Assembly (NCBI GenBank): GCA_947479755.1
Contig: CANKAM010000027.1
Span: 1 to 45,451 of the forward strand
Length of the DNA: 45,451 bases
Direction of reading: 5' to 3'
Source of the DNA: Bacteroidota bacterium
GTDB lineage: Bacteria > Bacteroidota > Bacteroidia > SXHM01
Shown here in pieces: positions 13,858-40,344 of the stretch. Under the pieces are notes generated by a model. The model worked only from the letters and a program-made list of their open reading frames with translations, did no database searches and was not told the DNA's origin. Numbering within the stretch: position 1 is the first letter of the stretch; the number at the start of each line of letters is the position of its first letter. Position numbers and translations under genes: made by a program.

Positions 13858-14129
13858 TTTTGCACCTAAAATAGGGTAATTTAAAATTGAATGATGGTGT
13901 TTTGCATACAAAACACTAAACAAGAAATTAAAACAGTGTAGTTTGACATGCAAAACTGCATGAATTGAAAATGAAATACATGGTTTTACATGTCAAACTG
14001 CACACATTGAAAAACAATAGCCCACTTTTGCATGTCAAACTACATGAATTGAAAAACAGAGTCGCACTTTTGCATGTAAAAGTGAATGGATTAGAATTTA
14101 AATCTGTGTTTTTGAGTGTGAAGCCCTAC
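13858..14129. repeat. Degenerate 42-bp tandem repeat (two 21-bp half-units)
   Basis: Six full units start at 13858, 13900, 13942, 13984, 14026 and 14068, and a partial one at 14110. Each is exactly 42 bp; most open with TTTTGCATGT-like bases and carry AATTGAAAAACA at mid-unit. The half-units share a TTG at positions 3-5 and CA near position 11, so the base period is 21 bp. The array fills the convergent gap between DUF3467 and tadA and runs into the tadA 3' end by a few bases. A small hairpin (13823-13843) precedes it. The Lys/Leu-rich frame crossing it is read as a by-product of the periodicity. Confidence 0.8.
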
Positions 14130-14572
14130 CGCTTCCCCTTAAAAAACTCTTTAACTATAGCAGAACATTCTTCGTGCAGAATACCCGGCAGTATTTTGGT
14201 TTTGGGATGCAGAATTTTCCCTTGAACAGAAGTATAGCCTTTCTGCTTATCAAAGGCTCCGTAAACTAATCTTCCTAGTTGAGTCCAGCCGCAGGCACCT
14301 GCACACATAATGCAGGGTTCCAGCGTAACGTAGAGTGTGCATTCGTCCAGGTATTTTCCGCCAAGGAGGTTGGCAGCAGAGGTAAACGCCTGCATTTCGG
14401 CATGGGCTGTTACATCGGTAAGCGTTTCGGTAAGGTTATGTGCCCGCGCAATAATCTGGTTGTTACAAACTACGATGGCGCCAACAGGAACTTCATCGGC
14501 ATCAAAGGCCTTTTGCGCTTCCTTCAGGGCTTCGCGCATAAAATATTCGTCAGAGTAAACACTTAGTTGCAT
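14126..14572 (-). CDS. tadA: tRNA-specific adenosine deaminase
   Basis: A 148-residue zinc deaminase that converts A34 to inosine in tRNA-Arg(ACG). The cytidine-deaminase fold motifs are intact: HAEM (His57 zinc ligand, Glu59 proton shuttle) and PCIMCAGA (Cys87, Cys90). The upstream EVPVGAIVV segment is typical of TadA. Length is normal. It is transcribed divergently from yidC. Its C-terminus (EFFKGKR) ends at the edge of the 42-bp repeat array. A TATATTTG box lies only 5 bases before the ATG, which would give a very short or absent leader. Confidence 0.96.
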   Translation of the reverse strand: MQLSVYSDEYFMREALKEAQKAFDADEVPVGAIVVCNNQIIARAHNLTETLTDVTAHAEMQAFTSAANLLGGKYLDECTLYVTLEPCIMCAGACGWTQLGRLVYGAFDKQKGYTSVQGKILHPKTKILPGILHEECSAIVKEFFKGKR

Positions 14573-28662: not shown

Positions 28663-29214
28663 ATGAAACGCATACTAACATTATCATTAATCATTTTTTC
28701 AACCTTAAACATTATGGCACAAAACCCCAAAGTATTTTTTGATATGACTGCAGATGGCGAAAAGCTGGGTCGTATAGTATTTGAACTTCGTCCGGATGTG
28801 GTTCCTAAAACAGCCGAAAACTTCCGTGCACTGTGCACAGGCGAAAAAGGTTTTGGCTACAAAGGCTCACCTTTTCACCGTGTTATTACTAACTTTATGT
28901 GTCAGGGTGGAGATTTTACCAACCAAAACGGTACGGGCGGCAAAAGTATTTATGGCGATAAATTTGCTGACGAAAATTTTACCCTTAAACATACCGAACC
29001 CGGTTTGCTGAGTATGGCTAACGCAGGGCCTAACACCAACGGTTCACAGTTTTTTATTACTACTGTTGTTACAAGCTGGTTAGATGGCAAACACGTTGTT
29101 TTCGGTAAAGTAATAGAAGGCATGGATGTGGTAAGAACAATTGAAAAATTGGGAAGCCAAAGCGGTGCTACTTCTAAAAAAGTTATTGTAGCTGATTGCG
29201 GAGAGTTGAAATAA
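28663..29214 (+). CDS. Secreted peptidyl-prolyl isomerase, cyclophilin A-like
   Basis: A 183-residue protein: signal peptide ([20 protein letters not shown]) plus a complete single-domain cyclophilin that accelerates proline isomerisation in exported proteins. All cyclophilin A active-site residues are present without indels (offset 18): Arg73, Phe78, Met79, Gln81, Phe131, Trp139, Leu140, His144. The stretches [52 protein letters not shown] and [12 protein letters not shown] are the eukaryotic-type signature, unlike the shorter E. coli PpiA/PpiB. Alone on the plus strand, with a strong terminator behind it. Confidence 0.96.
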
Positions 29215-29234: not shown

Positions 29235-29266
29235 AAAAAAGCCCCGTTTTGCGGGGCTTTTTTTTT
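29235..29266 (+). terminator. Intrinsic terminator after the cyclophilin gene
   Basis: AGCCCCG-TTTTG-CGGGGCT hairpin (7 GC-rich bp, extended by A/T pairs) followed by a run of nine T. It is 20 bases after the stop codon. The A-run on the left could make it work in both directions. Confidence 0.92.
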
Positions 29267-29277
29267 AAAATTTGGTT

Positions 29278-29568
29278 ATATCAAGGGTGTTGTTTAAAAC
29301 TGTTTCTCATCTGTTTGAAATTATTTCTCTGATGTCAGCAATTGTTTCTGCAATGTCTGTAATTGTTTCTTTACTGTCTGCAATCATTTCTAGGGTGTCT
29401 GTAATTGTTTTTCACACGTCAGTAATTAATTCTGCGGTGTCTCAAATTGTTTCTTGAGAAATGATTGCAAACAGACAAGTTTTAATTGCAAACAGACAAG
29501 AAACGATTACAGACGCTCCTGTTTTAATTGTAAACAGACTGGAAGTAATTGCAAACACCTCGGATTTT
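29278..29568. repeat. Inverted pair of 21-bp-period repeat arrays
   Basis: Left array: nine units start at 29278, 29299, 29320, 29341, 29362, 29383, 29404, 29425 and 29446, exactly 21 bp apart, with consensus ATTGTTTCT-NNNN-TGTCTGTA (first and last degenerate). Right array: five units start at 29464, 29485, 29506, 29527 and 29548, also 21 bp apart, with consensus ATTGCAAACAGAC then 8 variable bases, essentially the reverse complement. GTCTGTAATTGTTTCT (29355) pairs with AGAAACGATTACAGAC (29499) except for one T-G. The array fills the convergent gap between the cyclophilin terminator and the PKD gene, ending at that gene's stop codon. Confidence 0.85.
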
Positions 29569-32500
29569 ACTCCACCACCACCTTACTCACCACCACCTCA
29601 TCACCCGCGCGGACTTTAAAGAGGTAAAGCCCTTTTGAAAAACCTTCAAGATTTAGTTTTTCGGTAAAGTATTTTGTTGTGCCGGGTCGGTTAAAGTAAA
29701 CGCGTTGTCCAAGGGTATTGGTCAATTCCAACTCTAATGCAACAGGCTTCTCGGTTTCAAAGGTTATAGTAAAGACTCCCGAATTCGGGTTAGGATAAAT
29801 TGTCAATTCTCCATTGTCCATTGTCAATTCATTAAAGCCTACTCCAAATTCAACCACTATAATAGTCTGGCTTACCGAAGTAGTGCAGTTGTAATTAATG
29901 GAAGTTTGCGTAATGGTATAAATACCCGGCTCGGTATAAGCATGCACAGGATTTTCGGCTGTCTCCACAAAACTGCCGTCACCAAAATCCCAGAACCATT
30001 GTTCAGCATTTACCGAAGTATTAGTAACCGTAACTGTTCCCAAACCGGAGAGAACAACGGTATCGGTATTGGTTGTAAACCCTGCCTGCAAACCAAGGCT
30101 GGTGCAGTTCCATTGCACATCAATAATATGGATGGCAGTATCAGAACAGGTTGCATTGGCAGCAATCAGAAACACAGGATGCGTTCCCACTTCGGTAAAA
30201 GTATAAACAGGATTTTGCACAAAAACATTGGGGCTGCCATCACCAAAATTCCAGTTCCAGGTGTTGGGTGCGGGAGCGGTGAGGTCGGTAAAACTTACCG
30301 GATTATTTATTTGGGTTGTATTGGGTGCGCTGAATTGTGCATTGATAGTTGGCAACACGGTAACTGTCATGTTATCAGTTGCAACGCAACCATAAGGATC
30401 GGTCATAATTACATCATAACTTCCGGCTTGCAGAGTCTGGTAGGTTTGTGCGGTTTCACCGCTCAAACTAATGCCGTTCCACTTCCATTGAAAAGTTGCT
30501 CCGGGGTTACCGGCATTCAATAAAGGATCCGCTTCGTTGGTACACATCACCACATCAAAACCAACATTTACCGAAGGGTCACTTACAAATAAGTTCATGG
30601 TATCAACTCCTCTGCAACCTTCACGAGAAGTAATGGTGATGGCATAATCGCCCGGCAAAATAGTTTGCAGAAACTGTGAGTTTTGCCCGATTGGGTTGTC
30701 GTTAAAAGTCCATGCATAGGTTGTTGCATTTGGAATTCCTGCATCCAAAATAGGGAAGCTGGCATTTACACAAACGGCATCATCAGCACCTAAATCAACA
30801 GGCAATACAATAAATACTTCCAGAGCAATATCATCTGTACCGGAACAGCCGCTGCCGTAATCAACCGTAACGCTGTAATTTCCCTCACCAACAGCCTGAA
30901 CAATTTGTATGTTATCCGTAATCGGACTTCCATCCAATGTCCATACATAGGTTGCGCCCGGATTTCCGCCAGCATTTAAAAAGGGCATATCCTGCAAATA
31001 ACAGATAGCAGTATCAGGACCTAAATCAATAACTACCGCATCTAAAACATGAATGGTATCAACAGCTTTTGAAGTTCCGCAACAACTGGTTGTTATTAAT
31101 TCAACAATATAATCACCTGCTGTTGCAAATGAAACCGTTCCGGGATTTTGGTCAGTTGAGGATGTAATAGAACCTCCGGGAATATTCCATTCATAAGTAA
31201 GTGCGGTTGAAGAAGCACTCAGGTCAGTGCTTTGTCCTGCACACAAAGTTGTTTTGGTAGCAACAATTTCAGGAGGTGTAAAGTCGGTTGTGATGTCAAT
31301 AAAGTTGGCATAAAAAAAAGGAACACCATCTACAATCAATGAAATATTTCTGAAGCCGAGCGGGCCTGTATATTGCACGCTGTCTGTGTTTTCCTCGCTT
31401 CCTGCAGGTGTAGCACCGTAACCAAAAATCCAGTTGATAATACCGGTTGTGTCGGTTTCAACCACTACGTTGGAGTTGGTACAGCCATAATATTCAACCC
31501 TGATCTCGGGCTCAAACCGGTTGTAATTATAAGGACGCAAAACCTGAGCAGTACCACCAAATTCATAAAAAGCTGCGCTCATACCATCTGAACCTTTTCC
31601 GCCTTCGCCACCGGTTCCGCCTTGCCCACCGGTTCCGCCATCACCACCTTCACCGTTGTTGCAACTGTGGTCAGGACCAAAGTCACCAAGGTTTCCGCCT
31701 TGCCCGCCTACACCACCTGCACCTCCTTGTCCGCCTGCTCCACCGGGACCACCTTGTCCTCCATCACCGGGCGTTAAATAACAATCCTGTACAATTCCGT
31801 TAATACCATTATTGAAAACAAAAACGCAGAACGAGCCACCTGCACCATTGCCACCCAATCCGCCACCACCGGCTTGTCCGCCTTCGCCACCGCCACCGCC
31901 ACCGCCACCGCTTCCGGCATTGTGATAAGCAGTATCACCGGGATAAGGAATTGGATTTGGTGTTGGAAAATAGGGTTGCAAAGCAGCAGGCTCGCAGCCT
32001 TTTGCTCCGCCACCACCACCACCACCACCACCGGCTCCGTTGGTTTGTCCGGGGTCGCCTTGCTCCCCAATTCCGGGAACATAATATCCTCCTGCAAATG
32101 TTGCAGTGCCTTGTAATCCGTCAAAACCTTCTATACCATCTGCGCCATCAGTTCCGGGTACACCGTGATTGAGGCTCTGCGCAAGACATTGGGTATTCTG
32201 GTAAGTTACTTCACACATTCCAATTCCACCGTTTCCGCCTTGTCCGGGTGCATAGCCCAGACCGTTTTCGCCATCAAGCCCGTTATTGGTATAATCACTG
32301 CCGGGTGATACTATCCACTGACAAAATCCAAGAATACATTGCTCTTCTACTTCAAAGCCGCCCCATTCAGCACCAAATCCGCCATTACCTCCGGCATTGC
32401 TTCCCGGAAAAGAACCGGAAGCGCCCACTCCGGGTTGTCGGCAGCAATTTCCAACATCTTCACCGGTCTCACCATCAGTTCCAGGTGCGCCATCTAATCC

Positions 32501-33037
32501 GGTTGTGCCCGAATCGCCTAGTAATCCGTCAGAGGCATCACCAACTGTAACGTAGCAACGCGATATGGTATATTCGCTGCAACCTGAAATATAAATTCCG
32601 TAAACAGAAACACCATTACCTGTTGCATCTTCAACTTCCAGTCGCAAATCAAGCAAACGAAAGTTACTGATGTTGACACAATTTATCCCAATCAGTGCAG
32701 GGGGCACAGCTTGTATGTTTGAATTATCGCGCAGAATTTTTGTGATGTTGCGGTTACTTTTTATCCAGGTTGTTACATCAAAACCGCCTTCAATAGTAAG
32801 GTCGGCCTGCATCTGCAAAGGCGAGGTAATAGGATAATTTCCTTCAGCCATCCGTATCTTTTTGTTGGCAGGACTAACCAGTGTTAACCCGTAATCCAAT
32901 GATGCAGGATTAGCTTTTGTGCCTGTTGTTCCGCTGCTTGCGCCACTAGGAGAAACATAGATAACACCACATTCCTGCGAAAAAATAAAAACTGATTGTA
33001 GTGAAAAGAGGAGAAAGAGGAGTAAGCTGCGCACCAT
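29567..33037 (-). CDS. Large T9SS-secreted protein with Gly-rich region and PKD domains
   Basis: A 1156-residue protein with a signal peptide (MVRSLLLFLLFSLQSVFIFS). The N-terminal 170 residues look like the start of a parallel beta-helix (ECGVIYVSPSGASSGT, IRMAEGNYPITSPLQMQADL). Residues about 180-505 are strongly Gly-rich with collagen-like and GGxGG runs (GGQGGPGGAGGQGGAGG) and dispersed cysteines. Several Ig/PKD-like modules follow: repeated LxLGPD/LGAD...CxxxxxPxLxAGxPxATxxW units (about 680-890), then two classic PKD domains with WNWNFGDGSPN and WFWDFGDGSFVE (about 905-1070). The C-terminal sorting domain (about 1085-1156) has IYPNPNSGVFTITFE and GFSKGLYLFKVRAG. A surface adhesin or matrix protein is plausible; no enzyme motif was seen. 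Confidence 0.88.
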   Translation of the reverse strand: MVRSLLLFLLFSLQSVFIFSQECGVIYVSPSGASSGTTGTKANPASLDYGLTLVSPANKKIRMAEGNYPITSPLQMQADLTIEGGFDVTTWIKSNRNITKILRDNSNIQAVPPALIGINCVNISNFRLLDLRLEVEDATGNGVSVYGIYISGCSEYTISRCYVTVGDASDGLLGDSGTTGLDGAPGTDGETGEDVGNCCRQPGVGASGSFPGSNAGGNGGFGAEWGGFEVEEQCILGFCQWIVSPGSDYTNNGLDGENGLGYAPGQGGNGGIGMCEVTYQNTQCLAQSLNHGVPGTDGADGIEGFDGLQGTATFAGGYYVPGIGEQGDPGQTNGAGGGGGGGGGAKGCEPAALQPYFPTPNPIPYPGDTAYHNAGSGGGGGGGGEGGQAGGGGLGGNGAGGSFCVFVFNNGINGIVQDCYLTPGDGGQGGPGGAGGQGGAGGVGGQGGNLGDFGPDHSCNNGEGGDGGTGGQGGTGGEGGKGSDGMSAAFYEFGGTAQVLRPYNYNRFEPEIRVEYYGCTNSNVVVETDTTGIINWIFGYGATPAGSEENTDSVQYTGPLGFRNISLIVDGVPFFYANFIDITTDFTPPEIVATKTTLCAGQSTDLSASSTALTYEWNIPGGSITSSTDQNPGTVSFATAGDYIVELITTSCCGTSKAVDTIHVLDAVVIDLGPDTAICYLQDMPFLNAGGNPGATYVWTLDGSPITDNIQIVQAVGEGNYSVTVDYGSGCSGTDDIALEVFIVLPVDLGADDAVCVNASFPILDAGIPNATTYAWTFNDNPIGQNSQFLQTILPGDYAITITSREGCRGVDTMNLFVSDPSVNVGFDVVMCTNEADPLLNAGNPGATFQWKWNGISLSGETAQTYQTLQAGSYDVIMTDPYGCVATDNMTVTVLPTINAQFSAPNTTQINNPVSFTDLTAPAPNTWNWNFGDGSPNVFVQNPVYTFTEVGTHPVFLIAANATCSDTAIHIIDVQWNCTSLGLQAGFTTNTDTVVLSGLGTVTVTNTSVNAEQWFWDFGDGSFVETAENPVHAYTEPGIYTITQTSINYNCTTSVSQTIIVVEFGVGFNELTMDNGELTIYPNPNSGVFTITFETEKPVALELELTNTLGQRVYFNRPGTTKYFTEKLNLEGFSKGLYLFKVRAGDEVVVSKVVVE

Positions 33038-39153: not shown

Positions 39154-40344
39154 TCACAATATCGTAATCTCAAACACCTGTGCATTCGGTCCCTGCACAT
39201 ACCCGTTCATAAACGCTTTAAACTCTGCAACAGTAACAGTATGTATCACTTCCTGTCCGGGCAATATCGGTGTGCCCGACCCGTTCCAGCCTTCAACCGC
39301 GCTGTCAGCAGGATAAAAATGCCCCCCTCCAATACTCGGTCCTTGGGTGATATTTTTAATTTTCACCATTTCACCAACAGCCCATCTTAGGTTACTTGGC
39401 CCAAAGATGTTCAGCACCTGCCCACCGTTAATAGTTACAATAACTACCTCACGTTCCAGCTCAACATCAAGCACCAAATGCTGACCCGGACTTACATGCA
39501 CGTTCGCAATCGTTTTTGTAACAAAACCATCTTTCTCCACCGTTACCGTAAAATCCCCCGGTATAAAAGGTTTAAATAAATACTCGCCAGCTGCATCCGT
39601 TACCTCCTCAAGGTCGGTCTCATCAGCCCTTACCAAAACACCTTCAAGTGGATTTCCTTCACTGTCTGTAACCGTTCCTCCTAACCGTGTATGCTGTGTC
39701 CCTAAGTCTATTATTATTCGGTTGTTAAAATAATTCAGAAAAAAATCATTGTTCGTTGTCTTAAACTGAACTATCAGGTTATCTAAGTTATCATTCAGCA
39801 ACTCATCAGTATCCGAAAACTGTGTTATCAATTGTTCAGTTGCACTCTTCTTATCGCTGATAACATTTCTTGGTCCTGAAACTGCCGTTCCATACTGTGT
39901 TATCAGCGTCAGCAGGTCTCCCAGCATCACAGCAGTTATACCCTTACTCAGGATATTCGCAGCGTTCGTGTTCGCTATTCCTAAAATAAGGTTCGCTCTG
40001 TCAATCAGCAGACTGTCACCTAAATGCTCAAGGTCGCTTTCTGTAAAATTAACATTGCTGTAAAGTTCCTCATCATTCACATCTTTGGCGTATGATTTTA
40101 TCCCGCCTATAACAACTAGCAGCAATTCTATTAACGCTAACCGCTTTTCCTTTTTCGTGCTCGTTGCACCCTTGCTGCTCTTCTGCTGCCGGTTCTCAGT
40201 GTTCTGTATCAGCGTAATCTTCGAAAAGAAAAGCGTTACAACGCTCGCTATTCCTGCTAAGGCAGCCCATACCGCGTTGTTATCGGTCAGGCATTTTTTC
40301 ACTGCTAAGTACATGCTTAGCTTGTTTTCTTGTCTCGTATTCAT
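39154..40344 (-). CDS. Protein with carboxypeptidase regulatory-like domain
   Basis: A 396-residue protein with no cleavable signal peptide; a hydrophobic stretch at about residues 25-45 (VWAALAGIASVVTLFFSKIT) may be a membrane anchor. An alpha-helical region (about 65-215) is followed by a CarboxypepD_reg/TonB-plug-like beta sandwich (about 222-300: RLGGTVTDSEGNPLEGVLVR, DAAGEYLFKPFIPGDFTVTV, KDGFVTKTI). The last 90 residues (GGQVLNIFGPSNLRWAVGEM... to the end) form a separate, possibly beta-rich domain that I do not recognise. Function unknown. It sits 384 bases downstream of the HTH-protein gene on the same strand. Confidence 0.75.
   Translation of the reverse strand: MNTRQENKLSMYLAVKKCLTDNNAVWAALAGIASVVTLFFSKITLIQNTENRQQKSSKGATSTKKEKRLALIELLLVVIGGIKSYAKDVNDEELYSNVNFTESDLEHLGDSLLIDRANLILGIANTNAANILSKGITAVMLGDLLTLITQYGTAVSGPRNVISDKKSATEQLITQFSDTDELLNDNLDNLIVQFKTTNNDFFLNYFNNRIIIDLGTQHTRLGGTVTDSEGNPLEGVLVRADETDLEEVTDAAGEYLFKPFIPGDFTVTVEKDGFVTKTIANVHVSPGQHLVLDVELEREVVIVTINGGQVLNIFGPSNLRWAVGEMVKIKNITQGPSIGGGHFYPADSAVEGWNGSGTPILPGQEVIHTVTVAEFKAFMNGYVQGPNAQVFEITIL

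Follow-up and report, generated by a model that had tools for sequence, protein, structure and literature searches.

Plasmid iterons combine a rep gene with directly repeated sites of 17–22 bp, which are located about two helical turns apart and have plasmid-specific words. Centromeres of the sopC/ParB type are built of 43-bp direct repeats with a palindrome in each. Arrays resembling both systems were found in the genome of a Bacteroidota bacterium, including one at positions 29278–29568 of a 45,451-nucleotide stretch of DNA, which was analyzed as a whole and is hereafter called the window. As in iterons, directly repeated sites follow each other at approximately two helical turns, the word is specific to the system, inverted copies occur, and an array can lie directly 5′ of a gene. 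However, tens of copies are present on one chromosome, and a Rep gene does not adjoin them: the genes of the family described below match no Rep, and the array 29278–29568 is flanked by genes for a peptidylprolyl isomerase (PPIase) and a T9SS-sorted protein. Moreover, the words change within one protein subfamily, and some arrays are orphans (without an adjoining family gene) in gaps between convergent genes. The sopC/ParB centromeres, with tandem units of about four turns and a dyad in each, are closely resembled by the 42-bp class of our arrays, but the latter occupy around a hundred loci per genome with a different word at every locus, and their neighbors are not partition genes, with the exception of a parA-like gene beside the orphan array C6:71350–71854 (L057:11351–11853).

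BrickBuilt and 464/PgRS MITEs of Porphyromonas gingivalis contain internal tandem repeats of 23 and 41 nt (PMC4596501). They are likewise intergenic, have periods of about two and four turns and belong to the same bacterial class, but BrickBuilt copies share one unit, a leader and tail, and terminal inverted repeats, while the arrays studied here share neither words nor flanks, and no unit with leader and tail common to all copies was found. Other elements that are abundant, intergenic, partly palindromic or tandem and often located in convergent gaps include REP/BIME palindromes and repeats of heptamers, e.g., TAACTGA (PMC3733652, PMC4679880). These consist of a 7-bp unit or of a single sequence or a small number of sequences spread over the genome, whereas our arrays have no common sequence; a single high-copy palindrome was not found in the genome, nor was a 7-bp sub-period inside the 21-bp unit. 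The 21-bp unit is degenerate with a 4-bp variable core, unlike the near-identical repeats and unique 25–40-bp spacers of CRISPR. A search limited to open-access papers revealed no description of such arrays.

Organization of the Array

The array 29278–29568 consists of 13 degenerate 21-bp units without a single indel (Table 1). When the units are aligned in one orientation, both arms correspond to the same sequence, ATTGCRRACA-NNNN-AGAAAYA, placed in mirror orientation. The original prediction described two inverted arrays with separate words, of nine units on the left and five on the right. The inversion and the five right units were reproduced, but the arms represent one unit on opposite strands, and only eight left units are clear, the ninth being weak. 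The exact 21-bp spacing of two opposed arms held: the self-match at lag 21 in the gap was 0.71 over 84 bp, whereas 2000 base shuffles of this gap gave no value above 0.49, and the best 120-bp stretch in the whole window reached 0.69 (mean 0.28, SD 0.05).

Table 1. Coordinates of the array, its neighbors and related features in the window.
Feature	Position	Strand	Description
Cyclophilin-type peptidylprolyl isomerase gene (left neighbor)	28663..29214	+	Upstream of the terminator-like hairpin
Terminator-like hairpin and T run	29238..29267	+	After the PPIase gene; AAAGCCCCGTTTTGCGGGGCTTTTTTTTT; the array starts ~10 bp beyond
Left arm	29278..29463	-	ATTGCRGACA-NNNN-AGAAACA, exact 21-bp register; 8 clear units at 29299–29463, a weak outer one from 29278
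Right arm	29464..29568	+	5 units of the left-arm 21-bp unit, ATTGCAAACA-GACA-AGAAACG type
Gene for a large secreted glycine-rich protein (right neighbor)	29567..33037	-	C-terminal T9SS-type sorting domain, recognized by eye
Second orphan array	13883..14146	.	Word TTTTGCATGTCAAA repeated with a period of 42; flanked by the convergent DUF3467-like and tadA genes
Array-associated family gene (the only one found in the window)	39154..40344	-	Helical N part, CarboxypepD_reg-like C part

As proposed earlier, the array fills the space between the terminator and the convergent gene, whose stop codon lies at 29567 and abuts the right arm. The array is non-coding: in the left arm, three TGA codons interrupt the unit frame, and none of the six frames is open across it, so that the possibility of a gene, named at the outset as a refutation, was dismissed. 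A DNA search of the same genome found no second copy of the array, and no exact match to its unit was found in viral contigs.

Two-Turn Arrays in the Genome

The census was performed on 1.24 Mb in stretches, i.e., one third of the 3.9-Mb genome, by scanning lags from 12 to 89, with genes predicted by a simple codon-usage caller. Only lags 21 and 42, their multiples, and 41 rose above the background: 28 self-match regions were found at lag 21, 39 at lag 42 and 4 (three loci) at lag 41, with none at lags 19, 20, 22, 23, 40, 43 and 44. Arrays of 31/32 or 52/53 bp (three or five turns) were absent from the sample, and five Markov resamples of 1.24 Mb each gave zero arrays, which answers the concern that the periodicity is no commoner than in shuffled sequence. 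The two-turn phasing suggested for the array is thus strongly supported at the genome level. About 35 distinct intergenic arrays were present in the sample, which extrapolates to ~110 per genome, in a genome with only ~12% non-coding DNA. Each locus has its own word, and most pairs of arrays, with few exceptions, are no more similar than expected by chance. Therefore, the notion of one conserved word on one face of DNA is valid within a single array but not between loci, and in a search of the genome and its relatives it is the 21/42-bp period that recurs, the consensus being locus-specific. At homologous loci in other genomes, the periods are sometimes 20/40/60–61 or 22/44 bp, and some arrays in distant genomes have periods such as 43/61 bp.

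The array 29278–29568 is one member of this large class of chromosomal DNA elements, sharing its 21/42-bp period, non-coding state and locus-specific word, though no family gene adjoins it. Intergenic heptamer microsatellites mimicking the 21-bp period were observed in other Bacteroidia (L118:7930–8040, L168:12530–12625, L191:361–460 and L193:10250–10330), with the units CCCAAAA, GGGTTTC, AAGTTCA and GGTATAG. A heptamer origin was rejected for the arrays themselves, as the mean profile autocorrelation was −0.03 at shift 7 and 0.44 at shift 21; helix-phased A/T content was rejected as well, no 10.5-bp excess being detected at the nucleotide level.

A period that is a multiple of three, together with short open frames in both arms, could indicate that the array encodes, or once encoded, a coiled-coil protein with heptad repeats (I-A-D/N-x-x-E-T), and one 42-bp array of like geometry (L049:8227–8576) is truly located inside an open reading frame, where it encodes the 14-residue repeat ETQMATISTEMATA. 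However, besides the TGA codons in the left arm, 25 of the 36 intergenic arrays contain no open frame, and a frame would be broken by arrays of 41, 20 and 22 bp. The 41-bp arrays in this genome and those of 20/40/60 and 22/44 bp elsewhere are compatible with a helical phase but not with a reading frame. The coding explanation is largely refuted and hardly credible.

Symmetry of the Arrays

As a whole, 28 of the 36 intergenic arrays resembled their reverse complements more closely than did column-shuffled versions, i.e., they are dyad-symmetric. The two dyad centers of a palindromic 42-bp unit are separated by 21 bp, and therefore both classes, 21 and 42 bp, are built on a common lattice, in which a dyad or site occurs every two helical turns.

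Such palindromic units would be expected to form hairpins, and on each strand the array 29278–29568 gives a better fold than shuffled sequences (z −5.0 and −7.0). Because its arms are inverted, the fold-back of the two halves in RNA, proposed earlier, is possible for this array, and tandem hairpins or a long fold-back could act post-transcriptionally as a leader RNA, terminator or dsRNA. Across all arrays, though, there was no covariation at the dyads (1752 pairs observed and 1806 after permutation) and no G-U strand bias (440 G-T against 383 A-C mismatches), which suggests that the symmetry is a property of DNA and not of RNA. Given the absence of covariation, an RNA hairpin in each unit was rejected, and no curated Rfam covariance model matched the arrays. 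An RNA-level role is therefore quite improbable, and less likely than a recombination role or passenger minisatellites, both of which are considered below.

A Gene Family Adjoining the Arrays

Inspection of the array neighbors revealed an unnamed multi-copy family of 160–400-aa proteins, which was assembled by single-sequence and small-profile searches. The proteins have a predicted helical N part and a beta-rich C part, sometimes fn3- or CarboxypepD_reg-like; beyond this C part, the family gave no match in Pfam or NCBIfam. No recognizable DNA-binding domain and no PADLOC (defense system) match were found, only weak tail-fiber-like matches were obtained in PHROGs, and family genes were not found in viral contigs or plasmids. 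The predicted pI varies from 4.4 to 9.9 across the family.

In the 1.24-Mb sample, 20 of the 21 detected members adjoin an array, which in 17 cases is on the 5′ side, and about half of the sample arrays are located directly 5′ of family genes. The only member without a detected adjoining array is the gene 39154..40344 of the window. The single-sequence structure prediction for its product was unusable (pLDDT 36), and no solved structural relative was found.

Since the family seeds had been picked by adjacency to arrays, the link was tested independently in the congener G003 and in other genomes. All eight family genes found by similarity in G003 adjoin an array, seven according to the script (p = 2.4e-8) and the eighth by eye, its array having been miscalled as an ORF. 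The other genomes, hundreds of Bacteroidia, were searched blind. For subfamily A (149 genomes queried), a phased array was present within 800 bp 5′ of the gene at 22 of 23 loci with enough upstream sequence, including other bacterial families. For subfamily B, an upstream array was found at 20 of 29 loci, and arrays with periods of 20/40/60 or 22/44 bp occur at several of the remaining ones. In subfamily C (345 genomes), 24 of 27 loci have an upstream array, compared with 5 of 24 having a downstream array of any period. The YidC control gave 3 of 14, all three being an orphan array of the present genus (p = 9e-6 for the difference between family loci and YidC). A distant array (L097) was found first by its period and only later seen to lie 85 bp 5′ of a family gene.

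Two further observations concern the surroundings of the arrays. In L286–L289, a conserved leader, CCCGCACAAAGCGGGAAAGGCGACACCGGGCGCATCCCGGCAAC, is located between the array and the start codon of subfamily B genes; it could form two hairpins and has no Rfam match. Also, genes encoding XRE-type HTH proteins adjoin the arrays C3:71232 and C6:19759, as well as one array in G003.

Period and Turnover of Words

The period of the array follows the subfamily of the adjoining gene. It was 21 bp in 19 of 21 subfamily A arrays and in none of 19 subfamily C arrays, which always have a period of 42 or 41 bp without 21-bp similarity (p = 1.6e-9); 16 of these 19 are dyad-symmetric. Words, on the other hand, are common only to orthologues with approximately 97–98% identity and can be unrelated at 92% or less: between paralogues with 92% identity, the word similarity was 0.27 against a background of 0.25. 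We therefore rejected the idea that the word is set by protein identity. The geometry of the arrays is conserved, and their sequence is not.

Comparison of homologous gaps illustrates this turnover. In the gap between the DUF3467-like and tadA genes, L082 carries the array of the window with one extra 42-bp unit, it is replaced in L087 by an unrelated 41-bp array, and L083, L085 and L086 have none, the distance from stop to stop being only about 6–15 bp. In the RodA/SurA gap, one array is shared by G000 and G006 and another by G001 and G004, while the RodA proteins are 98–100% identical. The arrays of G000 and G001 in the carbonic anhydrase gap (L206 and L207) are identical base for base beside differing flanking coding DNA, which suggests a recent exchange by recombination. 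One word was also observed, in inverted orientation, in two arrays of G000 located 33 kb apart, C1:123236 (L020) and C1:156050 (L021), one of which lies 5′ of a subfamily C gene.

Locus-specific words, the loss and replacement of arrays, and a change in unit number by 42-bp steps, as between L082 and the window, might also be explained by replication slippage that favors helically phased duplications and so makes and remakes functionless passenger minisatellites. For such passengers, one would not expect a period specific to the subfamily or a location that, in many genera, is almost always 5′ of the genes of one family, and the sample contains no arrays of 31/32 or 52/53 bp. We regard this explanation as rather unlikely.

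Orphan Arrays

The array 29278–29568 is an orphan, located between convergent genes neither of which belongs to the family. There are ~15 such arrays in the sample, and 7 of 15 lie in convergent gaps, compared with a baseline of 30/195 (p = 0.007). The expectation that arrays might be confined to convergent gaps failed, since arrays are found in gaps of every orientation, about half of them preceding family genes; only the orphans are enriched there.

In the same PPIase/T9SS gap, the congeners G003, G004 and G006 have 21-bp arrays with other words (a different middle), and G001 has none. The copy in G003 is split by an IS1595-like transposon (L225:9000–12950). The closest array in the same genome is located upstream of the family gene C14:28774; it is of the TTTGCGGACANNNNAGAAATA type, and its arms are also inverted. 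Thus, the unit of an orphan recurs at a family gene, and the gap in G003 carries the very word of the C14:28774 array. A general rule by which orphans and family arrays would be word-mates was not significant (5 of the 9 top pairs were mixed, with 51% expected), so only the specific match with the C14:28486 array is retained. No family gene is present in the PPIase/T9SS gap, either here or in four congeners; consequently, the loss of such a gene does not by itself explain the array.

It could be supposed that the arrays are sites recognized by structure, as attC is for integrons, and serve for the gain, loss and shuffling of family genes, with the orphans being empty sites. The presence or absence of an array in one gap (6–15 bp between the stops when it is absent), wholesale replacement between congeners, the recurrence of one word in inverted arrays 33 kb apart, and the persistence of geometry and dyads under differing words are consistent with this explanation. 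However, a family gene never occurs in the orphan gaps of congeners, the arrays sit 5′ of the gene as the upstream and downstream counts for subfamily C demonstrate, and an unsystematic look revealed no integrase beside them. In our opinion, a recombination or mobility role is unlikely.

Proposed Function

Based on the above results, we tentatively favor the following reading. The arrays may represent a gene-linked lattice of mostly dyad-symmetric two-turn sites, and we infer that their dyads would be occupied cooperatively, along one face of the helix, by a protein that is the family product itself or a partner shared by the family members. The repeat of the lattice, 21 or 42 bp, would be set by the subfamily, with two alternating dyads in the 42-bp case. 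A lattice in front of a family gene would control its promoter, and one in a convergent gap may be a detached site of like kind that serves for insulation, anchoring or titration. If only phase and symmetry are selected, words could drift, and whole units could be gained and lost.

A connection with the encoded protein is favored by the position of the arrays and by the dependence of their period on the subfamily. At the same time, the rapid turnover of words, the varied pI and the absence of a recognizable DNA-binding fold argue against simple recognition of a word by the family protein, and differing words beside 92% identical paralogues are hard to square with sequence-specific recognition. 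A more far-reaching proposal, which is possible but doubtful, is a Bacteroidia system in which each protein of a diverse multi-copy family would assemble on its own lattice and shape its evolution. In such a system, recognition would depend on phase and dyad geometry and not on sequence, the two- or four-turn repeat would be characteristic of the subfamily, and detached lattices would be located elsewhere between convergent genes.

The link between the arrays and the family across many related bacteria points to an undescribed DNA-based system. Geometry conserved without conserved sequence and tied to one family across genera distinguishes it from REPs, iterons, MITEs, CRISPR and microsatellites. 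The arrays would account for a sizeable share of the intergenic DNA in these genomes. They also provide the first functional lead for an unnamed multi-copy protein family and raise a testable question of whether the phase of DNA is read by the family protein or by a partner.
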